Of a stretch of DNA of 64,000 nucleotides, positions 30,602-57,380 are shown in pieces. The stretch is from Methylopila sp. 73B (GTDB taxonomy: Bacteria > Pseudomonadota > Alphaproteobacteria > Rhizobiales > Methylopilaceae): NCBI RefSeq assembly GCF_000526315.1, contig NZ_JAFV01000001.1:558001-622000 (forward strand). Direction: 5' to 3'. Positions within the stretch are counted from its first letter, which is position 1. Each line of letters starts with the position of its first letter. Made by a program: the position numbers and the translations under genes. Below the pieces are notes generated by a model. The model made no database searches, had not been told where the DNA came from, and worked only from the letters and a program-made list of their open reading frames with translations.

Positions 30602-31615
30602 ATGACCCAGGACCAAGATCCCATCGCGATGGTCGTGCCGCCGGCGGCGGACAACTATCTCTCGATGGTGCTGCTGGTGGACGACCAGGTGCTGATCTGC
30701 GAGGCCGTGCGGCGGGCGCTGGCCGAAGAGCCGGACATGGATCTCCACTACTGCACCAACTCCCGCGACGCGGTCCGCACCGCCCAGGACCTGAAGCCGA
30801 CGGTGATCCTGCAGGACCTCGTCATGCCGGGAATCGACGGGCTCGATCTGCTGCGGACGTACCGGGCGACGCCGTCGTTGCACGCGGTTCCGGTCATCGT
30901 CCTGTCCGCGAAGGACGAGGCGAGCACCAAGAGCGAGGCGTTCCGCGCCGGCGCGAACGACTATCTCGTCAAGCTCCCGGATCGGATCGAGCTGATCGCG
31001 CGCATTCGCCACCAGACCCGCGCCTACCTCGACCACGTCCAGCGCGACGCGGCCTACAGCGCGCTGCGCGAGAGCCAGCGCCAGCTGATGAACGCCAATC
31101 TGGAGCTTCAAAGGCTGACGCAGATCGACGGCCTGACCAACCTCGGCAACCGTCGTTACTTCAACGAATACATGCAGGCGGAATGGCGCCGGGCGCTTCG
31201 CAGCGAGGCGTCGATCGCGGTGCTGATGATCGATGTCGATCGTTTCAAGGGCTACAACGACGCCTACGGCCACCTGGCGGGGGACGAGGTCCTGAAGCGG
31301 CTCGCCGCGGTCATCAACACCGGCGCGAGCCGCGCCAGCGACCTCGCGGCGCGCTTCGGCGGCGAGGAGTTCATCGTTGTCCTGCCCGGGGCGACGATCG
31401 ACGGGGCCGGCGCGGTGGCTGACCGCCTGGTTCGAAGCGTGCGCGATCTCGGCATTTCTCATGGCGAGGGGGTGGTCACAATCAGCGTGGGCGTCGCCGC
31501 CATGGTTCCAGGCGTCGGCACATCCGCGCGCGACCTCGTCAACGCGGCCGACGTCGCGCTTTTCCGCGCCAAGGAGGCGGGGCGGGACAGGGTGGAGCCG
31601 CACATCGCGGCCTGA
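30602..31615 (+). CDS. wspR: Response regulator diguanylate cyclase WspR
   Basis: 337 residues from the ATG at 30602. The receiver domain has DD27-28-type acidic residues (LLVDDQ) and the phosphoacceptor Asp72 (ILQDLVMPG). After a helical linker comes a GGDEF domain with an active GGEEF at 253-257 and an inhibitory I-site RASD at 244-247. Phosphorylation by WspE should drive assembly into an active c-di-GMP synthase. This is the output of the Wsp operon. It starts 11 bases after wspF. Confidence 0.94.
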   Translation: MTQDQDPIAMVVPPAADNYLSMVLLVDDQVLICEAVRRALAEEPDMDLHYCTNSRDAVRTAQDLKPTVILQDLVMPGIDGLDLLRTYRATPSLHAVPVIVLSAKDEASTKSEAFRAGANDYLVKLPDRIELIARIRHQTRAYLDHVQRDAAYSALRESQRQLMNANLELQRLTQIDGLTNLGNRRYFNEYMQAEWRRALRSEASIAVLMIDVDRFKGYNDAYGHLAGDEVLKRLAAVINTGASRASDLAARFGGEEFIVVLPGATIDGAGAVADRLVRSVRDLGISHGEGVVTISVGVAAMVPGVGTSARDLVNAADVALFRAKEAGRDRVEPHIAA

Positions 31616-44068: not shown

Positions 44069-44743
44069 TCAGGCCGTCGTCGCGATCTCGGGCGTCGCGG
44101 CGGCGGAAAGCCGCCCCTTCTCCATGTGCAGCACGCGATCGGCGAGATCGCCCATGAACTTGACGTTTTGCTCGACGAGCAGGATCGACAGGCCCAGCGA
44201 CCTGCGAAGCCGCAGGAGCGTCTCCACGATCTCGTCGCGGATCGACGGCTGAATGCCCTCGGTCGGCTCGTCCAGCAAGATCAGCGACGGCCGCCCGCAC
44301 AGGCAGCGGGCGAGCGCGAGGATCTGCTGCTCGCCGCCCGAGAGCACACCGCCGGCGCGGTCAAGGATCGACGTCAGGCGCGGAAACCGCTCGATCATGT
44401 CGTCGACGATCTCGAGCGGCTGGGCGGCGGCGCGGGCGGCGTACTCCATGTTCTCCCGCGCCGTCAGCGCGGGGAAGATCTGCCGCCCCTGGGGCACGTA
44501 GCCGAGGCCGCGCCTGGCCCGGCGGAACGGCGGCTCGCGCGCGACGTCGACGCCCTCGAACACGATCGAGCCCCGGGTCGCGGGGATCGCGCCGCTCAGC
44601 GCCTTGAGCAGCGTGCTCTTGCCCATGCCGTTGTGGCCGAGCACGCCGAGGATCTCGCCCTTGTCGACGCTGAGGGCGACCTCGCGGAGAATGCCGATCT
44701 GGCCGTAGCCGGCGGCGAGGTTGGAGACGGTCAGCAGGCTCAT
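44069..44743 (-). CDS. Branched-chain/amide ABC transporter ATPase, LivF/UrtE-like
   Basis: 224 residues. Walker A GHNGMGKST, PQGRQIFPALTAREN, signature LSGGEQQILALAR and Walker B LILLDEPTEGIQPSIRDEI, again closer to UrtE than to LivF. It overlaps the upstream ATPase gene by four bases and is the last gene of the second transporter operon. The likely cargo is the substrate of the HyuAB enzyme encoded upstream. Confidence 0.92.
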   Translation of the reverse strand: MSLLTVSNLAAGYGQIGILREVALSVDKGEILGVLGHNGMGKSTLLKALSGAIPATRGSIVFEGVDVAREPPFRRARRGLGYVPQGRQIFPALTARENMEYAARAAAQPLEIVDDMIERFPRLTSILDRAGGVLSGGEQQILALARCLCGRPSLILLDEPTEGIQPSIRDEIVETLLRLRRSLGLSILLVEQNVKFMGDLADRVLHMEKGRLSAAATPEIATTA

Positions 44744-45462
44744 GCCGCGTCCTTTCCGAGGTAGACGTCGCGCACGCGGGCGTCGGCCAGCACCTCGGCC
44801 GCCGGCCCCTGCGCCAGCACGCGGCCCTGGTTGAACACCGTCACCGTGCGGGCGATGCGGCGGATGAAGGTCATGTCGTGCTCGACCACAATGACCGAGC
44901 TTGAGCGCGCGAGCTCCACGATTAGGTCGCCCAGCCGGTCGACCTCGGCGCCGGTCATGCCCGCCGCCGGCTCGTCGAGCAGGATCAGGTCCGGCTTCTG
45001 GGCGATCACCATGGCGAGCTCGACGAGCTGGCGCTGACCGTGCGCAAGCCGGCCGACGACGTGGCCGGCGAGGCGGGACACGCCCATGCGCTCCAACGCT
45101 TCCTCAGCGCGCCTCTTCGACAATGTCGGCGGCAGCACGGCGTCAGTCGCGACGCGGACGCTCGCCATCGCCGTCAGCCCGTCGAACAGGCTCGGCACTT
45201 GCGTCTTCACGCCCACGCCGAGCCGGGCGATGCGCGAGGCGGGCAGGCCCGCGATGCTGCGGCCGCGCAGCCGCACGTCGCCGGCGGTGGGCTTCAGCTG
45301 GCCGCAGAGCATCTTGAAGAAGGTGCTCTTACCGGCGCCGTTTGGGCCGACGAGGCAGTGCAGTTCGCCTTCGCCAAGCGTGAAGTCAACGTCGGCGACG
45401 GCGGTCACGCCGCCGAAGCGCATCACGAGGCTCTCCGCCTCGAGCAGGGGAGCGCCGGTCAT
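44740..45462 (-). CDS. Branched-chain/amide ABC transporter ATPase, LivG/UrtD-like
   Basis: 240 residues. Walker A GPNGAGKST, KTQVPSLFDGLTAMASV in the Q-loop area, LAHGQRQLVELAMVI as signature, Walker B LILLDEPAAGMTGAEVD. Four-base overlaps with the permease gene before it and the ATPase gene after it show a tightly coupled operon. Confidence 0.92.
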   Translation of the reverse strand: MTGAPLLEAESLVMRFGGVTAVADVDFTLGEGELHCLVGPNGAGKSTFFKMLCGQLKPTAGDVRLRGRSIAGLPASRIARLGVGVKTQVPSLFDGLTAMASVRVATDAVLPPTLSKRRAEEALERMGVSRLAGHVVGRLAHGQRQLVELAMVIAQKPDLILLDEPAAGMTGAEVDRLGDLIVELARSSSVIVVEHDMTFIRRIARTVTVFNQGRVLAQGPAAEVLADARVRDVYLGKDAA

Positions 45463-46511
45463 GGCCGCTCCTCCGCCGGCTGGCCAAGCTCCGCCGCGCC
45501 GCGCCCCCGCGTCTTTGCAAGCAGGCGCTCTCCGAGCGTGAGCGCTGTGGGCAGGAGACCCTGCCGCAGACCGAGCACGCAGAGCGTCAGCACGACGCCC
45601 ATGACCAGGTTGGGGTCGAGGACGGCGAAGCCCGGCCCCGCGTCGAGCGAGCCGAGCCAGGTTGAAAGCGCCATCAGCAGGAAACAGCCGATCACGGGGC
45701 CTGCGAAGGTGCCGAGCCCGCCGACGATCACCCAGATGATCACCTGCCCGTTAGTCTGCAGGCTGAACATGTTGGGGCTGACGAAGACGCTGTTGGCGAA
45801 CAGCACGCCGCCGGCGCCCGCGATCGCGCCGCCGAGGGTGAAGATCCCGAGCTTGTAGCGGCGGGTGTCGTAGCCGAGCAGCTCGGCGCGGCTTTCGTTT
45901 TCGCGGATCGCTATCACCGCCCGGCCGAAGCGGGTCGCCATCGCAAGTTTGCAGATGACGTAGCAGGCGAGCAGCGCGCCGACGGCGAGCATGTAGATCT
46001 GCTCCGGCAGGAAGGGCTCGTCGGGATGGCCCGGCGGCGCGAGGATTGGGGTGGAGGGGATGCCGTTGAAGCCGCCGAGAGGGGCCGCGCCGATCGTCCA
46101 TTCCTCGCCCGCGGTCTGGTTGATGAAGCGGTAGAGGATCAGCGACACGGTGAGGGTGATCACGCCGAGGTAGACGTCCGAGATCCGGCCCCAGAACATG
46201 AAGTAGCCGAGCAGGGCCGCGAAGCCGGCCGCCGCCGCGACGGCGATCACGGCCGCGAGCGGCGTGCTTTCGAGGTTGAGGCCGGCGACCGCGTAGACGT
46301 AGCCGGCGAGGCCGAAGAACGCGGCCTGCCCGAAGCTGAGGATGCCGGCGTAGCCCCAGATGAGCGCAAGCGAGAGCGCGAGGATCGCGTAGCTCGCGTA
46401 GATCGAGCCGTTGATCATGGTCGTCAGCTCGCCCCCGGCGGGAACGGCCACGAGGGCGTAGAGGGCGGCGGCTGCGACGAGCAGCCAGCCGAGGGCGTCG
46501 CGAAGGGTCAC
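45459..46511 (-). CDS. Branched-chain/amide ABC transporter permease, LivM-like
   Basis: 350 residues from the GTG at 46511 that overlaps the stop of the upstream permease; longer frames are shadows of that gene. About ten membrane helices with LIWGYAGILSFGQAAFFGLAGY and the coupling loop AIRENESRAELLGYDTRRYK. It forms the channel together with the LivH-like protein. Confidence 0.92.
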   Translation of the reverse strand: MTLRDALGWLLVAAAALYALVAVPAGGELTTMINGSIYASYAILALSLALIWGYAGILSFGQAAFFGLAGYVYAVAGLNLESTPLAAVIAVAAAAGFAALLGYFMFWGRISDVYLGVITLTVSLILYRFINQTAGEEWTIGAAPLGGFNGIPSTPILAPPGHPDEPFLPEQIYMLAVGALLACYVICKLAMATRFGRAVIAIRENESRAELLGYDTRRYKLGIFTLGGAIAGAGGVLFANSVFVSPNMFSLQTNGQVIIWVIVGGLGTFAGPVIGCFLLMALSTWLGSLDAGPGFAVLDPNLVMGVVLTLCVLGLRQGLLPTALTLGERLLAKTRGRGAAELGQPAEERP

Positions 46512-47374
46512 AGCGACCTCCGGAAGAAGCGGCCGGTGATCCCCTGCGGCAGCACGCGCAGGAGAAGGACGGCGGCCGCGAGCAGCGCGACCTCGCCGAG
46601 CACCGGCGTCATGACGAAGGAGAAGGCGGTGTTGACCGAGCCCAGCAGCGCCGAGGCGCTGAGCGCGCCCGTCAGGATCGCGGTCCCGCCGGAGATCACG
46701 GTGATGAAGGCCTTGGCAATGTAGACCGCGCCGATGGACGGCGCGACGCCCGTGATCGGCGCGATCAGCGCCCCCGCGAGCCCCGAGATGGCGGCGCCCG
46801 TGACGAAGGTTGTGGCGTAGACCTTGGCGGGGTCGACGCCGAGCTCCGCCGCCATGTCGCGGTTCTGCATGGCGCCGCGGGCGATCAGCCCGACCGCGGT
46901 CCGCCGCAGCACGTACCATCCGCCGAGGAAGAGCAGCGCGGTCACGCCGGTGGTGAGCAGTTCATAGAGGCCGATGGCGTAGCCGCCGATCGGGACGCTG
47001 CCGAGCGGCGGCGAGATGCCGGAGACGCGGTTGCCGAAGATTACCGTCACGACGCCGACCAGCGCCAGGCTGACGCCCCAGGTCGCCAGCATGGTGTCGA
47101 TCATCCGCCCGTAGAGCCGCCGGATGACGAGGCGTTCCAGCACCGCGCCGATGAGGCCGACCGTGACTGGCGCCGCCACGAAGATCGCGAGCCAGAGATT
47201 GAGGCCGGCCTGGTGCGAGACCAGCGCCGCGTAGCCGCCGAGCATCAGGAACTCGCCATGGGCCATGTTGATGATCCGCATCATGCCGAAGATCACCGCG
47301 AGCCCCGCGCTGATGAGCGCGAGGTTGGCGATGGTCACGACGAGCTGCAGGAGGACGATGAGCGCATAGTCCAT
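46508..47374 (-). CDS. Branched-chain/amide ABC transporter permease, LivH-like
   Basis: 288 residues, about eight membrane helices. Signature GLAVIFGMMRIINMAHGEFLMLGGY near the N-terminus and the coupling loop GLIARGAMQNRDMAAELGV. Unlike the UrtB of this window it has no exported N-terminal extension, which is one reason not to call this second operon urt. Confidence 0.92.
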   Translation of the reverse strand: MDYALIVLLQLVVTIANLALISAGLAVIFGMMRIINMAHGEFLMLGGYAALVSHQAGLNLWLAIFVAAPVTVGLIGAVLERLVIRRLYGRMIDTMLATWGVSLALVGVVTVIFGNRVSGISPPLGSVPIGGYAIGLYELLTTGVTALLFLGGWYVLRRTAVGLIARGAMQNRDMAAELGVDPAKVYATTFVTGAAISGLAGALIAPITGVAPSIGAVYIAKAFITVISGGTAILTGALSASALLGSVNTAFSFVMTPVLGEVALLAAAVLLLRVLPQGITGRFFRRSL

Positions 47375-47440
47375 GGTGTGTCTTCGGCTAGAGCGGGGAG
47401 CTTCGACGCAAGTGAGAGGGGCGAGCGACGTTACCCTCGT

Positions 47441-47560
47441 GCGTGCTTCGAGACGCCTCGCTGTTCGCGAGGCTCCTCAGCATGAGAAGAGGGGAGGGGC
47501 CTCTCCATCACCAAAGGGTCCTCATGCTGAGGAGGCCCGTAGGGCCGTCTCGAAGCACGC
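47441..47560. repeat. Family A palindromic repeat, copy 3
   Basis: Outer arms GCGTGCTTCGAGACG (47441-47455) and CGTCTCGAAGCACGC (47546-47560); inner arms GGCTCCTCAGCATGAG (from about 47471) and CTCATGCTGAGGAGGC (from about 47521). It lies between the binding-protein gene and the livH-like gene of one operon. Confidence 0.88.
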
Positions 47561-47588
47561 AGACGGTCGCGGCCGCCCCAGCCTCGCC

Positions 47589-48833
47589 TCAGCTCTTCAC
47601 GTCGATGACGAACTGCTTGGTCTCGGTCGGGTTCGCCGCGAGATCACAGACGGCGGCGGTGTCGGCCGGCGGCTGCTGCGGGAAGCTCTCCAGCACGTGG
47701 TAGGCGCGGTCCCGCACCTCAGCGATGTAGGTGTCCAGCGTGTCGTGATGGGTCCTGGGATCAATCGTGGTCTTGCCCGCGGGTCCCGTGAACGACAGGC
47801 CGCTCTCGAGCGCGAGGATGACCTTGTCACGGTCCACGCTGCCGGCCTCGGCGGCCGCCGCGGCCCAGAGGTTGACCGCGTGGTAGGTCATCGCCGAGGC
47901 CTCGGTCACCGCGTCCGCCTTTTCGCCGAAGCGGGCCGTGTACTTCTTCAGGAAAGCTTCGTTTTCCGGCGTCTTGAGGCCGTCGAAGTAGGCGTAGGAC
48001 ACCACGATGCCGTTGTGCTCGTCGGGCGAGGTCAGGACCTGCTCGTTGCCGATGCCGAAGGTGGTCGAAGCCATCGGGATCTTGTCCTTCATGCCGGCCG
48101 CGACCCACTGGCGGTAGAACGAGTTGTGCGCCGCGCCGACGAGCACGGACATGATCATGTCGGGCTTGGCCGCCTGGATCTTGCGGATCGTCGGGCCGAA
48201 GTCGTTGACGTCGAGCGGGAAGAAGTCCGCCTGCGCGACCTCGCCGCCGTTCTCGGAGGCGAACTTGCGGATCCACTTGGTGGTGATCTGGCCGTAGTTG
48301 TAATCGGCCGCCAGCACGTAGATCGTCTTCGCGTTGAAGCGCTTCATCACGAAGGGCGTGAACTTCTGAAGCGTCTGCGCGGGCGTCGAACCCATGCAGA
48401 ACACGTTGCGGTCGCAGACGCCTCCCTCGTAGAGCATGTTGTAGAAATAGGGCGTGCGGAACCGGCGGAGCGTCGGGCGCATCGCTTCCCGGGAGGCGGA
48501 GATGATCCCGCCGAACACCACCGAGGCCTTCTGCTTCGTGGCCGCTTCAGTCGCGTACTGGGTGTAGAGCTGCATGTTCGACTGCGGGTCGTAATTCTTC
48601 AGCGCGATCGGGCGGCCCAGCACGCCGCCCGCCGCGTTGATCTCCTCGACCGCCAGGGTCAGGCTGTTGATCATCGGCCGGCCGTAGATGTCGATGCCGC
48701 CCGAGGCGTCGTGGATGCCGGCCACCTGGATCGGCTCGGCGGCCGAGGCGAGACGGAGATAGGCGGGTCCGAAGCCCAGCGCCGCTCCCGCGGCGCCGGT
48801 CTTGAGAAGCGTCCTGCGGCTGAGATGCGTCAT
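47589..48833 (-). CDS. AmiC/UrtA-like substrate-binding protein, Tat-exported
   Basis: 414 residues. The N-terminus LSRRTLLKTGAAGAALGFG is a twin-arginine signal, cleaved probably near LASAAEP. The mature protein is a type 1 binding fold of the AmiC/UrtA kind: IHDASGGIDIYGRPM, AVEEINAAGGVLGRPI, VVFGGIISASREAMRPTL and LAADYNYGQITTKWIRKFA. It should deliver substrate to the LivHMGF-like transporter downstream. It is preceded by an AT-rich promoter-like region. The ligand is unknown; the adjoining AmiC sensor has the same fold, so they may share a ligand class. Confidence 0.9.
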   Translation of the reverse strand: MTHLSRRTLLKTGAAGAALGFGPAYLRLASAAEPIQVAGIHDASGGIDIYGRPMINSLTLAVEEINAAGGVLGRPIALKNYDPQSNMQLYTQYATEAATKQKASVVFGGIISASREAMRPTLRRFRTPYFYNMLYEGGVCDRNVFCMGSTPAQTLQKFTPFVMKRFNAKTIYVLAADYNYGQITTKWIRKFASENGGEVAQADFFPLDVNDFGPTIRKIQAAKPDMIMSVLVGAAHNSFYRQWVAAGMKDKIPMASTTFGIGNEQVLTSPDEHNGIVVSYAYFDGLKTPENEAFLKKYTARFGEKADAVTEASAMTYHAVNLWAAAAAEAGSVDRDKVILALESGLSFTGPAGKTTIDPRTHHDTLDTYIAEVRDRAYHVLESFPQQPPADTAAVCDLAANPTETKQFVIDVKS

Positions 48834-49058: not shown

Positions 49059-51080
49059 TCAGGCCACCTTGAGGGAGACCGTGGCGTCCTGGCCGGGTTG
49101 CATGCGCTGGCTCCAGTACGGGGAGGCGCGGCGCTTCAGCATGGCCCGGAACTGCTGGGTGGTTTTCTCGAGCAGCTCGCCCGAGCCCCAGTTCACGATC
49201 ACGCCGTACTGGCGGATGAGGTCGAGCGTGCCGAGCTCCCCCGCCCGGTACTTCGCGGCGATCGCCCCGGCGTCCTCGTCCAGCCACTTCGCGCGGTTGG
49301 CGCGGATGTAGGCGCGCTTGGCGAGCGTGCCCTCGCGGTCGACGACGTATTCGGCGAGGTCGGCGTCGACCTCCTTGACCACGACGCCGTAGTCGATCGC
49401 GGCCCGCTCGATCGAGACGTAGCCGTCGGCCACATCCTCGCAGACGAGCTGCGGCTCGCGCTCCAGCGGGTCGCCGAGGCCGCCGCCGCCGGCCGACGGG
49501 CGGCTGACGACGTCGCCCGGCGACAGCGACTCGTTCGAAAACATCGAGCCGAGATAGCGCTCGTTCTCGAGCCCCTCGTTCACCCACACGCCGTGCGGGA
49601 TCGAGGGCAGCCCGCCCCACAGCCCCCAGGTGATGGAGCGTTCGCGGTCGCAGCAGTAGGAGACGACGGTGCGGTCGACCTTGGTGAGGATGACGCCCTT
49701 GTCGACGCCCATGCCGCCGCGGGATTCGCCGGGGCCGCCGCTGTCGACGCGCAGTTCGTGGCAAGTGGTGAGCACCGGCGCGAGCCGCTCCTGGCCCTCG
49801 AAGGGCTGGGTGCCGAGCTGTACGCCGAACACCGGGCCGGTCGCCGCCCAGCCGTCGCGGCCGTTGCGGGCGCCCCAGCCGCCGACCATCCAGTCGTACC
49901 ACATGAAGTACTTGTGGCCGCCGGAGGCGTCCCGCTTGTCCTGGCCGCCGATCAGCAGGTAGTCGAGGTTGAAGGTGCAGGCCATCGCCCGCTCCGGCAT
50001 CACCTCGGCCCAGAGCTCGAAGATCGAGTTCATGATCTTCTCGAACGGACCCGAGCAGAAGCCCGCGACCGGCGTCGGCCAGGCGGCGTTCACGACCGAC
50101 CCCTCCGGCCCGAGATCCACGGTGACGACCCGGTAGAAGCCGGAGTTCAGCGGGATCTCCGGGAACTGCATCTTCGTGCCGGCGACGATCGCGGCGAAGG
50201 AGCCGCCGAAGCAGGCGTTGAGGAAGCAGCGGATGCTGGTCGGGTGCGACTTCGACAGGTCGTAATGGACGGTGTCGTCCTTGATCGTCATCCGCACGCG
50301 GATCGGGATCAGGCCTTCGCCGACGCCCGGGTCGAGGTCGATGTAGTCCTCGGTCTCCCAGACGCCGTCCGGCAGCGCCGACACGCGCTGGCGGGTCAGC
50401 GTCTCGACGTAGTCCTGCACCGCGCCGAAGGAGGTCTTGATGACGTCGAGGCCGTACTTCTCGATCAGGCGGCAGACCTCCTGCTCGGCGACCTTCGTCG
50501 CCTCGGCCTGGGCCTCCATGTCGCCGATGATGTCGGCCGGCGCGCGGGTGTTGGAGGCGATCAGGTTGCAGACGTCGTGCAGGCACTGGCCCTTGCTCCA
50601 CACCCGGACGGGCGTGATGCGCAGCCCTTCGGCCATGTGGTCGATGGCGTTGACGTTGAACGACCCCGGCGTCGCCCCGCCGACGTCCGCCCAGTGGCCG
50701 TTCGCCTGGGCGAAGCCGAGCAGCTCGCCCCGGTAGAACATCGGCCGCACGATGCGGGTGTCGTTGAAGTGTGTGCCGCCCTGGTAGACGTCGTTCACGA
50801 CGAACACGTCGCCGGGATGGATGTCGCCCTTGAAGGCGTTGATCACGGCCTTGGCGGTGTAGTGCAGCGTGCCGACGTGGGCCGCGATGTCGCCCGAGCC
50901 CTGCATGATCGTGTCGCCATTGGCGTCGCAGAGCGCGGAGGAGAAGTCGCGGGACCAGATCACGAAGGAGTAGCAGGTGCGGAAGATCTGCTCCGCCATT
51001 TGGTCGACGATGTTGACGTAGGCGTTCTTGAGGACCTCGAAGGTGACCGGGTCGAGGCCGTGGTCCATGTTAGCGGACAT
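49059..51080 (-). CDS. Hydantoinase B/oxoprolinase-type subunit (HyuB)
   Basis: 673 residues. HyuB-family landmarks are LDPVTFEVLKNAYVNIVDQMAEQI at the start, GDIAAHVGTL, GDVFVVNDVYQGGTHFND (metal/active-site region), GHWADVGG and, near the C-terminus, RPSAGGGGLGDPLERE. The family uses ATP hydrolysis by the HyuA partner to open or carboxylate cyclic amides and ketones (5-oxoprolinase, N-methylhydantoinase, caprolactamase, acetone carboxylase). The substrate here is unknown. The start has AAGGAG seven bases upstream and lies 35 bases after hyuA. Confidence 0.9.
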   Translation of the reverse strand: MSANMDHGLDPVTFEVLKNAYVNIVDQMAEQIFRTCYSFVIWSRDFSSALCDANGDTIMQGSGDIAAHVGTLHYTAKAVINAFKGDIHPGDVFVVNDVYQGGTHFNDTRIVRPMFYRGELLGFAQANGHWADVGGATPGSFNVNAIDHMAEGLRITPVRVWSKGQCLHDVCNLIASNTRAPADIIGDMEAQAEATKVAEQEVCRLIEKYGLDVIKTSFGAVQDYVETLTRQRVSALPDGVWETEDYIDLDPGVGEGLIPIRVRMTIKDDTVHYDLSKSHPTSIRCFLNACFGGSFAAIVAGTKMQFPEIPLNSGFYRVVTVDLGPEGSVVNAAWPTPVAGFCSGPFEKIMNSIFELWAEVMPERAMACTFNLDYLLIGGQDKRDASGGHKYFMWYDWMVGGWGARNGRDGWAATGPVFGVQLGTQPFEGQERLAPVLTTCHELRVDSGGPGESRGGMGVDKGVILTKVDRTVVSYCCDRERSITWGLWGGLPSIPHGVWVNEGLENERYLGSMFSNESLSPGDVVSRPSAGGGGLGDPLEREPQLVCEDVADGYVSIERAAIDYGVVVKEVDADLAEYVVDREGTLAKRAYIRANRAKWLDEDAGAIAAKYRAGELGTLDLIRQYGVIVNWGSGELLEKTTQQFRAMLKRRASPYWSQRMQPGQDATVSLKVA

Positions 51081-51115: not shown

Positions 51116-53173
51116 TCAGGCCAGCGGGATGCGCATGACGAGGGTGAGGGAGCGGTCGACTTCCGCCGTGACGCCGGGCGGCACGATCACCGTCGAGTCG
51201 AGCTGGTCGATCACCGCGGGGCCGGCGACCTTCATCCCGGACTGGAGCGCCGCGCGGTCGTAGACGGGCGCGTCGATCGTTTCCGGCAACTCGTCGAAGC
51301 GGACGCGACGGGTCCCGACGGGCGTCGCTTCGGCGTCGACGGGGTCGAAGTCGGCGAACTTCGCCTTCGAGGTGACGCCGGTCGCGATCACGCTGACGCG
51401 GTAGATCTCGACGGGTGCCCCGGGGCGCGAGTAGTTGTGCTCGCGGCCGTGCTCCTCGTGGAAGTAGGCGATCGACTCGTCGAGCGAAACGACGGGCGAG
51501 GCGATGTTGATCGACAGCGCGCGCCACTGGCCGTGGTAGCGCATGTCGATCTTGCGCTGGAACACCATGTTCTCCGGCGTCACGCCCTCGGTGACGAGCC
51601 GCTCGCGACCTTCGATCTCCAGCTCGCGGGAGGTCGTCTCGAGGTCGGCGACGTTCACCTCCTCGGCCTTCGCGAGGTACATCCGGGAGATGTCGTGCTG
51701 GATGTCGACCAGTAGGCAGCCGAGCGCCGAGGTGACGCCGGGGTTCGGCGGCACCAGAACGACGGGGATCGCCAGATCCTTGGCGAGCGCGGCGCCGTGG
51801 AGAGGCCCCGCGCCGCCGAAGGCCACCAGCGCGAAGTCGCGCGGGTCGTAGCCGCGCCGGATCGAGAGCAGCCGGACGGCGTCCGCCATGTTGGCGTTCG
51901 CGACCTTCAGGATCGCGAGCGCGGCCTCCTCGACCGACATGCCGAGCGGCTCGGCGACGCCCTTGCGGATCGCCTCCGTGGCGAGACCCTTCTCGAGCGA
52001 GACCTTGCCGCCGGCGAGCCGGTCGCTGAGGCGGCCGAGCACGACGTTGGCGTCGCAGTTCGTCGGGTTCTCGCCGCCGCGGCCGTAGCAGGCGGGTCCG
52101 GGCGTGGAGCCGGCCGACTGCGGGCCGTTGCGCAGCGAGTTGGCGGCGTCCATCCAGGCCAGCGAGCCGCCGCCGGCGCCGATCGTCAGCACCTCGATCG
52201 AGGGGAAGCAGATCGGGTAGCCGTACTCGACGAACCACTCCTTGGTGACGTTGATCTCGCCGTTGTCGCACAGCGAGACGTCGGTGGAGGTGCCGCCCAT
52301 GTCGAGGCCGATCGAGTTCCTGAACCCGGCCTGCTCGGCGACGAAGCGGCTGGCGATCGCACCCGCCGCGATGCCGGAGGCGGAGAGGCGCGCCGCGTAG
52401 CGCTCGGCCATCTTCGCGGTCATGACGCCGCCGCCGGAGTGCAGCAGCAGCACGTCCTCCTTGTAGCCGCCGGCCTTCATGCGGCTCTCGAGACGGCTGG
52501 CGTACTGGCCGACGACCGGCGCCAGCACCGCGTTCGCGACCGTGGTCGAGAAGCGCTCGTGCTCGAAGATCTCCGGCATGATGTCGCTGGAGATCGAGAT
52601 CGTCGCGTCGGGAATCGCCTCGGCCAGGATGTCGCGCATCCGCTGCTCGTTGGCCGGGTTGATAAAGGAGTTCGCGAAGCAGACCGCGATGGTCTTGACG
52701 CCGCGCTTCTTGATCACGCGGGCGAGCTCGGCGGCCTCCGCTTCGTCGAGCGGCGCGACGATCGCGCCGGAGTAGTCGGTGCGCTCGGTCACCACGAGGC
52801 GGTCGCGGCGCCGGATGTAGGGCTTCGCCATCTCCTTGTAGGTGTCCCAGAGGTCGTCGCGGTTGCCGCGGCGGATCTCGATGGTGTCGCGGAAGCCCTT
52901 GGTGGTGACCATCACGGCCGGCGGAAAGCGGCGGGTGATCAGGGCGTTGGTGGCGAGCGTGGTGCCGTGCTTGAACAGCAGCAGGTCGTTCAGGTTCACG
53001 CCGCCGGCGTCGATGCCGGCCAACACGCCGTCGATCGGGTCGGGGGTGGTCGGCACCTTCGCCACATGCATCAGGCCGGTGGCCTCGCTCAGCACGCAGA
53101 TGTCGGTGAACGTGCCGCCCACGTCGCAGGCGACGCGGACCCTGCGGTCTTCGACGTCAATCGCTTGAGTCAT
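51116..53173 (-). CDS. Hydantoinase A/oxoprolinase-type ATP-binding subunit (HyuA)
   Basis: 685 residues. N-terminal phosphate loop CDVGGTFTDICV, FKHGTTLATNALITR, then the second ASKHA half with GLDMGGTSTDVSL, GAGGGSLAWMD and GPACYGRGG. The C-terminal part includes MRYHGQWRALSI and GPAVIDQLDSTVIVPPG. This subunit binds and hydrolyses ATP to phosphorylate the substrate for HyuB. The ATG is preceded by GAGGAG. An intrinsic terminator and two small hairpins lie between amiR and this gene, suggesting induction by AmiR. Confidence 0.92.
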   Translation of the reverse strand: MTQAIDVEDRRVRVACDVGGTFTDICVLSEATGLMHVAKVPTTPDPIDGVLAGIDAGGVNLNDLLLFKHGTTLATNALITRRFPPAVMVTTKGFRDTIEIRRGNRDDLWDTYKEMAKPYIRRRDRLVVTERTDYSGAIVAPLDEAEAAELARVIKKRGVKTIAVCFANSFINPANEQRMRDILAEAIPDATISISSDIMPEIFEHERFSTTVANAVLAPVVGQYASRLESRMKAGGYKEDVLLLHSGGGVMTAKMAERYAARLSASGIAAGAIASRFVAEQAGFRNSIGLDMGGTSTDVSLCDNGEINVTKEWFVEYGYPICFPSIEVLTIGAGGGSLAWMDAANSLRNGPQSAGSTPGPACYGRGGENPTNCDANVVLGRLSDRLAGGKVSLEKGLATEAIRKGVAEPLGMSVEEAALAILKVANANMADAVRLLSIRRGYDPRDFALVAFGGAGPLHGAALAKDLAIPVVLVPPNPGVTSALGCLLVDIQHDISRMYLAKAEEVNVADLETTSRELEIEGRERLVTEGVTPENMVFQRKIDMRYHGQWRALSINIASPVVSLDESIAYFHEEHGREHNYSRPGAPVEIYRVSVIATGVTSKAKFADFDPVDAEATPVGTRRVRFDELPETIDAPVYDRAALQSGMKVAGPAVIDQLDSTVIVPPGVTAEVDRSLTLVMRIPLA

Positions 53174-53229: not shown

Positions 53230-53265
53230 AAAAAAGCCGCCGCCAGCGGTGATGCTGGCGACGGC
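53230..53265 (-). terminator. Intrinsic terminator in the hyuA leader (attenuator)
   Basis: On the minus strand the arms GCCGTCGCCAGC and GCTGGCGGCGGC (12 pairs, one G-U) enclose a six-base loop and are followed by TTTTTT. It lies 94 bases after the amiR stop and 56 bases before the hyuA ATG, so it would stop transcription before hyuAB unless overcome. Its 5' arm overlaps an alternative hairpin at 53262-53276. Confidence 0.85.
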
Positions 53266-53276
53266 TCCCTTGGCCG
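53262..53276 (-). promoter_or_regulatory. Candidate antiterminator hairpin P2 in the hyuA leader
   Basis: Minus-strand CGGC-CAAGGGA-GCCG. The 3' arm is shared with the 5' arm of the terminator, so the two structures exclude each other. The loop has A and G in the AxxG spacing described for ANTAR RNA targets. The AAGGGAGC core recurs in the amiC leader. Confidence 0.5.
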
Positions 53277-53336
53277 GTGTCCGCTGGCGACGATCTCTGG
53301 CGCGCGCGGACTTATGTGGACGTGGCGTTTCCGGTC

Positions 53337-53351
53337 GGCGCGCTCTGCGCC
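53337..53351 (-). promoter_or_regulatory. Candidate hairpin P1 in the hyuA leader
   Basis: Minus-strand GGCG-CAGAGCG-CGCC, eight bases after the amiR stop; a five-base-loop register (GGCGC/GCGCC) is also possible. The loop again contains AxxG. ANTAR targets are tandem hairpins, the second overlapping a terminator, which is the arrangement seen here. Confidence 0.42.
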
Positions 53352-53358
53352 GGACGGG

Positions 53359-53949
53359 TCAGAAACCCACGAATTCCTCAGCGTTGATGATCGTCTCGCA
53401 GACGATATCCATTGTAATTCGCGCAGTCATTGCGCGAGCGCGTATGGTCTCATACGCCTCTTGTTCAGATAACCCCTTCCGGGACATCAGTATTTGCTTC
53501 GCTTTTTCAAGCTTTCTGAAGCCCTCTAATCGTGCCTCAAGCTTGCGAACTCTGTCAAGAAGGATTTTCTCTTTAGAGGAAATTGTGTGGGCGATGACGA
53601 TGCTGGTCAGGAGACCGAAGGCGCGGATCGGCTTCGTCACGATTGCGGCGGCGCCGGCGCGGGCGACCGCCTCGATCACCGCCGGGCTTTCGAACTCCAC
53701 GATCGCGACCAATGTCACCCGCGCGTCGCGCTCGGCCAGCGCCTTCAGCAGGACGTGGGTGAAGCCGTCCTGCCGGAACAGCATGAACACGATGTCGGCG
53801 TCCGAGGGGATCGCGTCCCGCGGCGGCCACACGGCCTCGACGTTGCAGCCGATGCGGCGGATCTGGTCGACCAGTTCGTCGCGCTCGCGGTCCTTCGGGT
53901 GGTAGACCACCACGCGGACGTTTCGAAGGTCGCGGAGGGCCTTCAGCAT
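53359..53949 (-). CDS. amiR: AmiR-like antitermination regulator with ANTAR domain
   Basis: 196 residues, the same length as Pseudomonas AmiR. A pseudo-receiver domain (about 1-125) lacks the phosphoacceptor Asp (DADIVFMLFRQDG), as in AmiR. A coiled coil (EKILLDRVRKLEARLEGFRKLE) leads into the ANTAR RNA-binding domain with KAKQILMSRKGLSEQEAYE and IRARAMTARITMDIV. Control should be by binding to AmiC rather than by phosphorylation. It starts five bases before the amiC stop region ends (TGACCGGATG), so the pair is cotranscribed. Confidence 0.93.
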   Translation of the reverse strand: MLKALRDLRNVRVVVYHPKDRERDELVDQIRRIGCNVEAVWPPRDAIPSDADIVFMLFRQDGFTHVLLKALAERDARVTLVAIVEFESPAVIEAVARAGAAAIVTKPIRAFGLLTSIVIAHTISSKEKILLDRVRKLEARLEGFRKLEKAKQILMSRKGLSEQEAYETIRARAMTARITMDIVCETIINAEEFVGF

Positions 53950-53953
53950 CCGG

Positions 53954-55123
53954 TCAGCCCCCCGCTACGCGGGCGGTGACGAGGTTCGGCGCGTGGTCCC
54001 AGTCCGCTAGGCTGTGGTGGATCAGGTACGGGTCGGGCTTGATCGCCTGCGCGCTCTGCTCGAGCACCTTGAACTGGCCATCCGCCTCCACGCGCCCGAT
54101 CCGCGGCCAGAGGTAGGAGTGCCCGTTCTCGGCGTCGATCCGGATCTCGCCCTGCGGCGCAAGAAAGCTGGTCTCGCCGAGCGCCGACCGGACGTTCCCG
54201 GGTTCGACGGACCGGGCGCGCCCGACGGCGTCGAGCGTCATGCGCGTCACGCTGTAGGCGGTTTCGGCCATCGCGTTCAGGCGCTCGTGCACTCCGAAGC
54301 GGGACTGGTAGGCCCGCACGAAGCGGCGGTTTTCGGGGCTGTCGATCGACTGGAAGTAGGTCGCGCCGGTGAGGTGGCCGACGGCGAGGCCTGCCGGCAT
54401 CGACGCGATCTCGGCCTCGGTGACGGTCAGGCTCGCGATCGTCAGCGTGTCGGTCAGGCCGGCTTCGGCGCAGAGCTCGTAGAAGCGCACGGCGGCTTCG
54501 CCGACGACGGTGCAGAACACGACGTCCGGCTTCTTCTTCTTGATGTCCTGGACGATCTGGTCGAGCTCCCGGCGGGAGGCGTCGAGCGGCACGTAGCGCT
54601 CGGCCAGCGTCTGGCCCTTCTGCTCCGCGACCAGGGTCATCATCACCCGGTTGGATTCGACCGGGAAGGTGTAGCGGGTGCCGACGAGGTAGAAGCTCCT
54701 GCCGGCGTTGAGGATCAGGTGCCGCGCCAGCAGCAGGATATGCTGGTTCGGCACCGCTCCGCCGTAGATCACGTTCGGCGAGTATTCGAAGCCCTCGTAG
54801 GGCGCGGCGTAGGCCAGCACCGCGCCGCGTCGCTCGACGATCGGCACCACCGCCTGACGCGTGTTGGTCATGTAGCAGCCGACGAGCAGGCCGGCGCCGT
54901 CCTCGTCCAGCATGCGCTCGGCGAGGCTCGCGAACCGCGCCGGGTCGGACTGGGCGTCGTAGGTCACGGGAACAACCTCGCGGCCTGCCACCCCCCCGGC
55001 GGCGTTGATCTCTTCGATCGCGAGCAGCGTCGCGTTGAGCTGGGTGCGCTCGAGATAGGCCGTTGGCCCGGTCGCCGAGTACAGCGCCCCGACGATCAAC
55101 GGCTTGGTGGTGTCGAACGCCAT
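53954..55123 (-). CDS. amiC: AmiC-like cytoplasmic ligand sensor
   Basis: 389 residues from the ATG at 55123 with GGAAG upstream. A type 1 periplasmic-binding fold but with no signal peptide (MAFDTTKPLIVGALYSATG), as expected for a cytosolic sensor that sequesters AmiR. Landmarks are AIEEINAAGGVAGREVVPV, LLVGCYMTNTRQAVVPIVE and YYFQSIDSPENRRFV-like GATYFQSIDSPENRRF. In Pseudomonas, amide binding to AmiC frees AmiR. The ligand here is unknown but should relate to the HyuAB substrate. Its own leader holds a strong terminator. Confidence 0.92.
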   Translation of the reverse strand: MAFDTTKPLIVGALYSATGPTAYLERTQLNATLLAIEEINAAGGVAGREVVPVTYDAQSDPARFASLAERMLDEDGAGLLVGCYMTNTRQAVVPIVERRGAVLAYAAPYEGFEYSPNVIYGGAVPNQHILLLARHLILNAGRSFYLVGTRYTFPVESNRVMMTLVAEQKGQTLAERYVPLDASRRELDQIVQDIKKKKPDVVFCTVVGEAAVRFYELCAEAGLTDTLTIASLTVTEAEIASMPAGLAVGHLTGATYFQSIDSPENRRFVRAYQSRFGVHERLNAMAETAYSVTRMTLDAVGRARSVEPGNVRSALGETSFLAPQGEIRIDAENGHSYLWPRIGRVEADGQFKVLEQSAQAIKPDPYLIHHSLADWDHAPNLVTARVAGG

Positions 55124-55142: not shown

Positions 55143-55184
55143 AAAAAAAAGGAGCTCCCGCCGGGCAGAACCGGCGGGAGCTCC
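55143..55184 (-). terminator. Strong intrinsic terminator 20 bases before the amiC start
   Basis: On the minus strand a perfect 14-pair stem (GGAGCTCCCGCCGG / CCGGCGGGAGCTCC) with a TTCTGC loop is followed by eight T. It is 76 bases after the stop of the GGDEF-EAL gene and only 20 bases before the amiC ATG. It may end the upstream transcript, act as an attenuator of amiCR, or both. Confidence 0.9.
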
Positions 55185-55193
55185 CTTTGCTCC
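55177..55193 (-). promoter_or_regulatory. Candidate antiterminator hairpin in the amiC leader
   Basis: Minus-strand GGAGC-AAAGGGA-GCTCC, overlapping the 5' arm of the terminator by eight bases. Loop and 3' flank (AAGGGAGC) match the hyuA-leader hairpin. A weaker possible partner, GCC-TAGCGTC-GGC, is at 55197-55209. Confidence 0.5.
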
Positions 55194-55259
55194 TGAGCCG
55201 ACGCTAGGCGCCGCGCCGCGCGTCGTCAACGCGAAAGTTGGCGGGAGCGGCGCTCGCCG

Positions 55260-57251
55260 TCAGCGACGCGGCGGCGCCCGGCGGGCGGGCGCGGCGTTCG
55301 TATGCGCGCTCGCCCACCGCAGCGCTTCGTTGCGCGGCATCGGACGGGCGATGAGGTAGCCCTGAAACGCCTTGCATCCCAGGTCCTGCATGGTCTCGAG
55401 GTCGTCCTGTTGCTCGATGCCTTCGGCCACCACCTCGAAGCCGAGCGGCCCCGCGAGGCTGAGGATCGCCAGCACCAGACTGCGGTTCTCGGCGGACCGG
55501 GAGACGCCCTCGACGAAGATGCGGTCGATCTTCACCCGGTCCACCCGCAGCCGCCGAAGCGCTCCAAGCGAGGAGTAACCCACGCCGAAGTCGTCGATCG
55601 CCACGCTGACGCCGGCCTCCGACAGGGCGGCGAGCTTGCCGCGCACGGCCTGAATGTCGAGGGCGGTCTCCTCCGTGATCTCGATCTCGAGCATCGCGGG
55701 CGGAACGCCGCGCGCCTTCAGGTCCTTCAGCACCAGTTCGTCCACGGCGATCTGCGACATCTCGCGGGGCGAGACGTTCATCGCGACGCGGGCGTCGCTG
55801 AGGCCGATCTCGCGCATGGCGAGGATGGCGACGCAGATGTCGCTCAGGATGAAGCGCAGCAGCTGCTCGCCGAAGCCTGCGAGCGAGGCCGAGGCGATCA
55901 GGTCCGGGGGCGCGATCCAGCCGTGCCGCGGGTGGCGCCAGCGCGCGAGCGCTTCGAAGCCGCCGAAGCGCGCGCCCCCGTCGATCATCACCGGCTGATA
56001 CCAGACCTCGAGGCCGCCCTCCGCCAGCGCCTTTCCGAGGTCGCGCTCGATGTCGCGGCGCATCGCGAGATGGTGCGCGAGCTCCGCGTCGAACACGTAA
56101 CACCGGTTTCGGCCGGCGAGCTTCGCCGCATAGAGCGCGGCGTCGGCCGAGATCAGCATCTCGTCGATCGCCGGCGCCGTCGACACGTGAACCCCGATGC
56201 TGACGCCGATGCGGCCCGCGTCGAAGGCCGCGAAGGGGATCGTGATGGCGGCGATCAGCTCGTGCGCGAGCAGCGTCGGGTTGACGTCGACGAGGCCCAT
56301 TTCGAACAGCACGGCGAACTCGTCGCCGCCGAGGCGCGCCACCGCGAAGGAGTTGGGCAGCGACAATTGCAGCCGACGCGCGACCTCGATGAGCACGTTG
56401 TCGCCGGCCTTGTGGCCGTAGGTGTCGTTGACGGCCTTGAAGCCGTCGAGATCGAGCAACAGCAGGCTCATCGGCGACTGCGCGATCGCCGCCCGCCGTT
56501 CCGCCTCCTCCAGGAAGCCGCTGCGGTTGAGCAGGCCGGTCAGCGCGTCGCGCGAGGCGCGACGGGTCATCTCCTCGGCGATCTCGGTCGCCGCCTCGTG
56601 CGCGCCTTCGAGCGACCTCGCGAGAAAGGTCGCCTCGTTCTTCAGCCGGCTGGTCTCTCGCATGAGGCCTTCGCCTTCCCGGCAGGCCCGTATGAGGGCC
56701 GCGAGATAGAGAACGACGGTCGCGCCGAGGCACACGCGATCGAAGCCGCCCGCGTAGAACAGGCAACCCGCCGCCGACAGAAGCGGCGGCGTGATGAAGG
56801 CGATCGGGATGCGCGCGTAGGCGAAACCGTGCGTGACGGCGCCCGCGGTGATCCCGCACACGACGATCAGGTAGAACAGCGTCTGGGGCGAGGTGTAGCC
56901 GGCGCACAACGTCGGGATGAACGCCCAGACGAGACCGGACAACAGCGCGGCCGCCGAGTGCAGCTGCAAGCGTCGATCGACGGCCCTCGGATCCGTCGTC
57001 TCCGGCAGTCGGCAGAGCATCATGCGGACGCTGTTGGGAACGCAGGACGCAGCGAACCAAATCAGACCGGCCATGGCCTCGCCGGAGTTCCAGGCCACCA
57101 AAAAGGACGCGATTCCCAACGCCACGTTGACGGGTATCGACAGAAGCACGCTGCGCCTGACGGCAGCTAGCTGGTCGGACCGGATCAAGTGCGAGAGGGT
57201 GGTCGCGGCGCCCTTCGCGCCGCGCGATAAAGGTCGTCCCGCACCGACCAT
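55260..57251 (-). CDS. Membrane-bound GGDEF-EAL c-di-GMP protein
   Basis: 663 residues from the ATG at 57251, which has GAGG upstream; an ATG at 57299 is possible. Six membrane helices occupy roughly the first 195 residues. The GGDEF domain has an intact GGDEF (VARLGGDEFAVLF). The EAL domain keeps its catalytic set: FEALARWRHP, AMNVSPREM, EIEITEETA, IDDFGVGYSS, VKIDRIFV and VVAEGIEQ. It could make or degrade c-di-GMP; the direction cannot be told. Together with WspR it gives the window two c-di-GMP enzymes. Confidence 0.92.
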   Translation of the reverse strand: MVGAGRPLSRGAKGAATTLSHLIRSDQLAAVRRSVLLSIPVNVALGIASFLVAWNSGEAMAGLIWFAASCVPNSVRMMLCRLPETTDPRAVDRRLQLHSAAALLSGLVWAFIPTLCAGYTSPQTLFYLIVVCGITAGAVTHGFAYARIPIAFITPPLLSAAGCLFYAGGFDRVCLGATVVLYLAALIRACREGEGLMRETSRLKNEATFLARSLEGAHEAATEIAEEMTRRASRDALTGLLNRSGFLEEAERRAAIAQSPMSLLLLDLDGFKAVNDTYGHKAGDNVLIEVARRLQLSLPNSFAVARLGGDEFAVLFEMGLVDVNPTLLAHELIAAITIPFAAFDAGRIGVSIGVHVSTAPAIDEMLISADAALYAAKLAGRNRCYVFDAELAHHLAMRRDIERDLGKALAEGGLEVWYQPVMIDGGARFGGFEALARWRHPRHGWIAPPDLIASASLAGFGEQLLRFILSDICVAILAMREIGLSDARVAMNVSPREMSQIAVDELVLKDLKARGVPPAMLEIEITEETALDIQAVRGKLAALSEAGVSVAIDDFGVGYSSLGALRRLRVDRVKIDRIFVEGVSRSAENRSLVLAILSLAGPLGFEVVAEGIEQQDDLETMQDLGCKAFQGYLIARPMPRNEALRWASAHTNAAPARRAPPRR

Positions 57252-57380
57252 GCGATGATCCTCAACGGCGAGAGCCGGGACCGTCGGCCCACGACTCATT
57301 CGTCAGGACCATCCTGCGCTCGAGTTAATAGCCCCGCAACGCCGCGGAAAGAACACTATGTCGTCGTGGCGAAAGGGAAA

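Follow-up and report, generated by a model that had tools for sequence, protein, structure and literature searches.

In Pseudomonas aeruginosa the AmiC/AmiR system has amiE as its first gene, and its sensor and its ANTAR protein belong to the same families as the pair described here. The amiE leader is alike by description, in that it carries paired hairpins, the second of which overlaps a terminator (PMC3369931, in excerpt). Another example is EutV of E. faecalis, where the eut leaders form two hairpins, P1 and P2, each with a G at position 4 of the loop (G4), P2 is held in common with the terminator and the linker between the hairpins is short (PMC3369931 and PMC8934654, in excerpt). The excerpted sources give linkers of 5-12 nt for the eut leaders and of 2-25 nt for curated ANTAR RNAs (PMC3369931, PMC8164766), and report that antitermination is lost when the eut linker is made longer (PMC3369931, PMC8164766, PMC8934654). 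In the excerpted text of the EutV-RNA structure paper, G4 is the only base-specific contact (PMC8934654). The eut system differs from the locus treated here in responding to phosphorylation as opposed to release by AmiC, and in having hexamer loops that begin with A (A1). The NasR/NasT leaders (nasF, nosR) are also alike, in that nitrogen genes are controlled by ANTAR antitermination (PMC6759348, in excerpt), although their sensors are different and the likeness is taken from description.

A related arrangement is found in Methylopila sp. 73B, in a stretch of 64,000 nucleotides that was analysed as a whole (hereafter the window, to which all positions refer unless stated otherwise). Here the leader of hyuA is very probably a transcription attenuator under AmiC-gated AmiR antitermination, which would extend this type of control to hydantoinase/lactamase-type genes. 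Comparison with related loci suggests that the switch is real and mostly as a first-pass annotation had pictured it, with a different hairpin as P1 and with a possible second switch; the conserved P1 (53311-53279) and a terminator with a G4 hairpin before amiC (55193-55143) had both been overlooked. Among the matches listed in the literature search, no title or abstract start pointed to ANTAR regulation of hydantoinase genes, and the supplementary hit tables of 2012 may hold related leaders.

The amiC-amiR-hyuA locus

The genes of the locus are as follows:

53954 to 55123, minus strand: amiC, amide-sensor homologue matching PDB 1pea
53359 to 53949, minus strand: amiR, with AmiR_N (Pfam, 1.3e-37) and ANTAR (2.3e-13) domains
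51116 to 53173, minus strand: hyuA, hydantoinase/oxoprolinase A-type subunit, by domain and sequence matches
49059 to 51080, minus strand: hyuB, hydantoinase B-type subunit, by domain matches
44069 to 48833, minus strand: ABC transporter of the urea/branched-chain amino acid type (substrate-binding protein, two permeases, two ATPases)

The minus-strand order is amiC, amiR, a 185-nt leader, hyuA, hyuB and the ABC transporter. The start of amiC is taken as the ATG at 55123, the mechanical open reading frame beginning with TTG at 55144. Its product belongs to the amide-sensor family and matches P. aeruginosa AmiC (PDB 1pea, 5.6e-87), and only 4 nt separate amiC from amiR. The AmiR product joins an AmiR_N pseudo-receiver to an ANTAR domain and matches AmiR (1qo0, 5.3e-28) as well as EutV (6wsh, 1.1e-9). 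In the alignment, EutV Arg168, Met172 and Arg175 and the neighbouring Tyr164 are retained, and Thr stands in AmiR at the positions of EutV Asn173 and Arg177; the roles of the EutV residues are described in the excerpted PMC8934654. A side observation concerns the residue 11 positions past the AM motif of the ANTAR domain (gene at 53359-53949), which is Cys in this clade (seven carriers by script, with Hansschlegelia, L010, also a carrier by alignment), Ser in Chelatococcus and Ala in 71 of 82 AmiR sequences.

HyuA and HyuB are similar to caprolactamase and N-methylhydantoinase. They stay under the NCBIfam cut-offs for caprolactamase CapAB, with 509.8 bits for CapA and 339.9 for CapB against 1000 for each. 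The locus differs from that of P. aeruginosa in that the regulators come first, the attenuator lies behind amiR and the target is hyuAB with a transporter; the loops in the window are also 7 nt long, and amiC has a candidate attenuator of its own.

The order amiC, amiR, hyuA is kept in all eight named orthologues (L045-L052), which come from Methylopila (three), Hansschlegelia, Methylobacterium, a Rhizobiaceae MAG, Chelatococcus and Acidisphaera, and also in genome G066 (L125, HyuA 85%). Close AmiR relatives (E 1e-50 or better) are few, with 6 among 397 genomes of the order and 1 among 385 of the class, own genome included, and no further orthologue at this level was found in these two sets. 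Other AmiR leaders, among them those of Bradyrhizobium, Ancylobacter and Aminobacter, likewise carry P1, P2 and a terminator directly behind amiR; these loci differ downstream, where a substrate-binding-protein-like gene is found in 48 of 80, and HyuA is restricted to the eight orthologues within the flanks covered. In the window's own genome, there are five ANTAR matches; two more AmiR genes (4235079-4235660 and 2503767-2504327 in genome coordinates) each have a P1-P2-terminator-like leader after the stop codon.

Terminator and P2 hairpin of the hyuA leader

The elements read in the leader are as follows:

53230 to 53265, minus strand: intrinsic terminator with a stem of 12 pairs (53265-53236), one of them U-G, a loop of 6 nt and six U (53235-53230)
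53262 to 53276, minus strand: P2 hairpin CGGC[CAAGGGA]GCCG, 7-nt loop, G4 at 53269
53279 to 53311, minus strand: P1 as corrected here, GUCCGC..GCG.C[AGAGAUC]G.CGC..GCGGAC, loop 53298-53292, G4 at 53295
53337 to 53351, minus strand: hairpin GGCGC[AGAGC]GCGCC after the amiR stop, previously read as P1 and judged here to lie outside the ANTAR target

A strong terminator between amiR and hyuA, with twelve pairs and six T on the minus strand, and an alternative hairpin on its 5' arm (53276-53262) had been reported in the first-pass annotation, and both are borne out. The 3' arm of P2 is formed by the first 4 nt of the terminator, such that the two overlap and exclude each other. The leader folds more stably than its dinucleotide shuffles (z -2.99; equalled by 2 of 200), and the 11 core pairs of the terminator consensus are standard in all ten orthologous leaders (window included), one pair having changed on both sides in five of the ten. 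A scan of the 64 kb window lists three strong terminators (four rows, one site being listed twice), of which only those in the hyuA leader and before amiC are overlapped by a G4 hairpin; the third strong terminator-like hairpin (31528-31559, plus strand) has none.

The minimum free energy (MFE) fold of the RNA short of the terminator's 3' arm contains P1 and P2, whose predicted energy together is -20.0 kcal/mol, compared with -41.8 kcal/mol for P1 with the terminator. Since the finished leader favours P1 with the terminator, termination would be the default, and something must therefore hold P2 for termination to be prevented. The linked AmiR, released by AmiC, would be the obvious candidate. 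Under such a mechanism, a polymerase arriving through amiC-amiR, with read-through presumably originating at the amiC promoter, would transcribe P1 and P2 first, and unless AmiR held the hairpins, the later leader RNA would convert P2 into the terminator stem, with a stop before hyuAB and the transporter genes. Binding of an inducer by AmiC would free AmiR to bind P1 and then P2 via loop G4, which would allow the operon to be transcribed.

This reading draws on the leaders behind AmiR genes, which were searched with a rule that ignores the loop letters (GGC-N6/7-GCC before a terminator-like stretch behind amiR). The rule matches 77 of 81 AmiR loci, the other four being without P2 under it, and position 4 of the P2 loop is G in all 72 distinct loops (55 of six bases, 17 of seven), while positions 1, 2, 3 and 5 vary. 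Some of the 7-nt loops lie outside the hyuA clade. By comparison, 1.33 Mb of strand sequence outside leaders holds 24 distinct matches to this rule, a rate of about 0.006 for every 350 nt; their position 4 is C in 8, T in 6, G in 5 and A in 5. Five more matches lie before amiC, all five with G. Of the terminator candidates in 80 loci, 77 of the 82 behind amiR and 25 of the 28 before amiC are overlapped by a G4 hairpin (the top-scoring hairpin in 73 and 23, respectively), as opposed to none elsewhere, a background of 25 candidates only. In these counts (P2 in 77/81, G4 in 72/72, overlap in 77/82 against 0/25) the central proposal of an ANTAR-type AmiR switch finds its support, while the hairpin that had been paired with P2 drops out of it.

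An ordinary terminator that ends the amiCR transcript, with a promoter of hyuA between terminator and start codon and with hairpins that are there by chance, would account for a terminator that is strong on its own and for the gap of 56 nt from its U tract to hyuA. It would leave the 0/25 background against the leaders behind amiR to coincidence, however, and would sit poorly with the pattern of conservation. In seven relatives, the segment from P1 to the terminator agrees with that of the window at 55-69 of the 82-87 positions aligned, and it is more alike than the amiR-side flank in all seven; the segment from the terminator to hyuA, where the promoter would lie, resembles its counterpart less closely than the P1-terminator segment does in five of five relatives (L050 and G066, whose segments were cut wrongly, being left aside). 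A promoter scan also lists no promoter-like site within 44-58 kb, though the same scan missed the amiC candidate described below. This explanation is regarded as improbable. It is less probable still that the leader is the target of another ANTAR protein of the genome, for example another AmiR type: the five ANTAR matches would permit it, whereas linkage to this AmiR is kept by orthologues from several genera, and for two other AmiR genes of the genome the 3' side was read as well, each showing, by eye, its own terminator leader.

P1 and the ANTAR-target motif

With attenuation by the linked AmiR as the preferred reading, P2 would need a partner, and the partner proposed at first was the hairpin beside the amiR stop (53351-53337). 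The window has this hairpin, and of the nine other orthologous leaders only that of M. capsulata shares it, likewise with an AxxG loop; in Methylopila sp. Yamaguchi, M. jiangsuensis and Hansschlegelia it has other loop letters, and at its place in the other five loci there are different folds, or nearly none (Acidisphaera). That it acts as P1 with P2 over 60 nt is dismissed as highly improbable, since its loop is not conserved in those eight other loci, its linker far exceeds the published 5-12 nt (eut) and 2-25 nt (curated) in the excerpted PMC3369931 and PMC8164766, and a conserved P1 is already in the right place. An A and a G spaced AxxG had been noted in both loops of the earlier pair and are indeed there, while the P2 loop of Methylobacterium (UGUGAGA) is without this spacing, the feature kept being G4.

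The conserved P1 (53311-53279) is predicted by RNAalifold from the ten orthologous leaders, window included, and lies 2 nt upstream of P2, a linker within the curated range and below that of the eut leaders, so that two hairpins with a short linker are found. The alignment used starts just 3' of the hairpin beside the amiR stop; the prediction therefore supports the new P1 and does not itself compare the two. In the ten leaders, the outer arms of P1 form longer helices within a sequence than when cross-paired (mean 6.5 against 5.28; permutation p 0.0014), with the longest P1 helix of G066 sitting in a different register. Three of the ten P1 pairs have changed on both sides, and 90% of cells pair. 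For the whole predicted structure, which is the RNAalifold output on the same ten-leader alignment, 13 cells have changed on both sides, compared with 6.0 in shuffles (1 of 500 as high), and two further measures are no better than shuffles, namely pairs with a both-sided change (4; 89 of 500 as high) and further pair types (12; 492 of 500). The covariation that had been called for in orthologous amiR-hyuA gaps is thus seen for the corrected P1; the GGC/GCC core stem of P2 is invariant, so that covariation says nothing there either way. The base four past an invariant GCGCC is G in 10 of 10 leaders, and the two bases before it vary; the apex itself is ambiguous, the MFE fold giving a loop of 8 nt as opposed to the 7 nt read here. 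Comparison of the loci thus points to a conserved P1-P2-terminator architecture in which P1 covaries, G4 is kept and the genes remain linked.

Further evidence on P1 comes from AmiR leaders outside this group. Reference leaders (57) were selected with G4 required in P2 and with P1 unselected, and for this reason the P2 loops in the alignments derived from them are no evidence for G4. The main alignment holds 40 of the 57 references, the window and L125, near duplicates and doubtful matches having been removed by hand; because it misaligns the P1 loops of its two groups, by 3-4 columns, nothing on P1 is drawn from its invariant columns. A set of 34 sequences holds the non-orthologues, and a set of 27 leaves out the seven of these with 7-nt P2 loops. 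In the 27 leaders, both-sided changes are found in 10 of 11 P1 pairs, covariation is 0.315 as opposed to 0.149 (sd 0.017) in shuffles, the closing C-G pair of P1 is present in 27 of 27, and P1 has a loop of 6 nt; in 16 of these leaders the pair beneath the closing pair is non-standard. Against 500 shuffles, the number of both-sided pairs (10) is reached by 43, that of further pair types by 32 and the other measures by none. G4 of the P1 loop is invariant in the 27-leader and the 34-sequence sets, and a blind pick of the best hexaloop for P1 has G4 in 55 of 72 leaders, the remaining picks being mostly another hairpin that scores higher or a loop that is not 6 nt. By eye, a further P1-like hairpin, CGAC[ANNGNN]GUCG, is seen behind the leader terminator in L013, L014, L015, L016, L018 and L036-L040.

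Set against the strict published definition (hexaloops, A1 and G4), the window leader fails two features and keeps the linker, the terminator overlap and G4. Both hairpins have G at loop position 4 (G53295 and G53269); P1 begins with A and P2 with C, and both loops are of 7 nt (AGAGAUC and CAAGGGA). Among the ten orthologous leaders, A1 is found in P1 in eight and 6-nt loops, by the same reading, in P1 in four and in P2 in one; A1 of P2 is found in 17 of the 72 distinct leaders. A text search found no paper that combines an ANTAR protein with 7-nt loops. Over the set of leaders, every P2 keeps G4 in its loop but not A1 or a fixed loop length, which would loosen the published hexaloop rule.

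Model searches gave a more limited picture. An ANTAR-target covariance model had been proposed as a check, and on this point the outcome is negative: a P1+P2 model built from the 27 other AmiR leaders does not detect the site in the window, and over the nine orthologue loci its only match at the site is weak (L051, E 3.6). In the window's own genome, this model finds the leader of another amiR and then matches of E 0.07 or worse. The first model, which has a weak 8-pair consensus, gives two sites with E < 0.001 in the same genome, the leader of another amiR and the hyuA leader, the latter being found by construction because the window leader was in its training set. A scan of the window with Rfam gave nothing at the gathering score, which weighs only as far as Rfam includes an ANTAR family, and its five sub-threshold matches at the leader include no family that is ANTAR by name; the one with the best E-value, NiCo-AnGGAG (E 0.13, inside amiR), is regarded as a chance match.

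A candidate second element before amiC

The elements read before amiC are as follows:

55201 to 55229, minus strand: candidate amiC promoter TTGACG - 17 nt - TAGCGT, spotted by eye
55177 to 55193, minus strand: single hairpin GGAGC[AAAGGGA]GCUCC, placed where the transcript is expected to begin, with G4 at 55185
55143 to 55188, minus strand: terminator with a stem of 18 pairs (55188-55147) and a U tract as far as 55143; it overlaps the single hairpin

This arrangement of promoter candidate, hairpin and terminator is found in nine of ten loci, window included, and is missing from the Acidisphaera locus. The recurring layout is TTGAC, 17-18 nt, TAnnnT, 7-9 nt and then (A/G)GAGC[6-7 nt]GCUC(C/U) or GGAAGC[AAUGGG]GCUUCC, with the 3' arm of the hairpin within the 5' arm of the terminator. 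TTGAC is present in all nine loci with the element and TAnnnT follows 17-18 nt on in eight (not in Methylobacterium, L049), although a simple promoter consensus scan does not list the amiC candidate. All nine loops have G at position 4, though pairing in the terminator constrains them as well, and the arms, listed by hand for this test, pair better within than between sequences (permutation p 0.022). When hairpins over the terminator are ranked blindly, the GAGC type comes first in seven of the nine, its form in L051 having six pairs and a loop of 5 nt. In L047 and L048 it ranks second, behind a hairpin other than the G4 one. In the 77 named loci that have amiC, orthologues included, a strong terminator lies before this gene in 23, with an overlapping hairpin in 22 of these, and no such terminator was found in the other 54.

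As promoter candidate, G4 hairpin and terminator recur before amiC, the regulators may be gated too, and a second, simpler AmiR-type switch may guard the sensor genes. A start at the point set by the hexamers would give a transcript that opens with the hairpin and has no P1. Whether the operon is doubly gated by its own regulator, through the P1-P2 attenuator and through a one-hairpin attenuator at the 5' end of the transcript, where there is no room for P1, is put at about an even chance. The studied eutP leader differs in that it needs both hairpins, and whether one suffices is a question raised and left open in the excerpted EutV structure paper (PMC8934654). If the amiC element works, it would be a natural test of this question, and if double gating is true, the element would be a naturally occurring ANTAR antiterminator with only one hairpin, through which the regulators activate their own expression, or else a short RNA that serves as a decoy to titrate AmiR.

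For the amiC site alone, a somewhat unlikely but sizeable alternative is that the inverted repeat GGAGC-N7-GCTCC works as an operator on the DNA, lying as it does at the expected start point, or that the terminator marks the end of the gene upstream, which in the window is of the GGDEF-EAL type and stops 30 nt before TTGAC. The neighbour varies, however, being GGDEF-EAL in the window's group, ALAD in M. jiangsuensis and AraC-type in Chelatococcus, and it is divergent in Hansschlegelia (acyl-CoA dehydrogenase) and G066 (binding protein); the frames tested upstream of amiC in Methylobacterium and the Rhizobiaceae MAG gave no Pfam match. Because the neighbour differs among loci, it is not the cause of the element. 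In rhizobia, GAGC[AGGGTA]GCTC likewise lies over a terminator, and the promoter there reads as lying at a greater distance upstream; the position of the repeat thus does not always coincide with the start point, which counts against an operator.

Apart from the candidate one-hairpin attenuator, further features were observed upstream of amiC. The GGDEF-EAL gene of the window (55260-57299, minus strand) has, among 80 loci, a match of more than 80 residues only in M. capsulata and Methylopila sp. Yamaguchi. A conserved hairpin GAAAC[AGNGNC]GUUUC, with A1 and G4, is seen by eye in L090, L094, L099, L100, L103, L104, L106, L108, L113, L114, L117 and L118; no strong terminator was found upstream of amiC in these loci, which possibly reflects ANTAR control without attenuation. 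In L125 (G066), the divergent gene on the opposite strand encodes an AmiC-like binding protein (Peripla_BP_5, 4.9e-125; 36% to AmiC), beyond which lies a weak AmiR-like match (27%), so that a second sensor pair may perhaps be placed back to back with the first.
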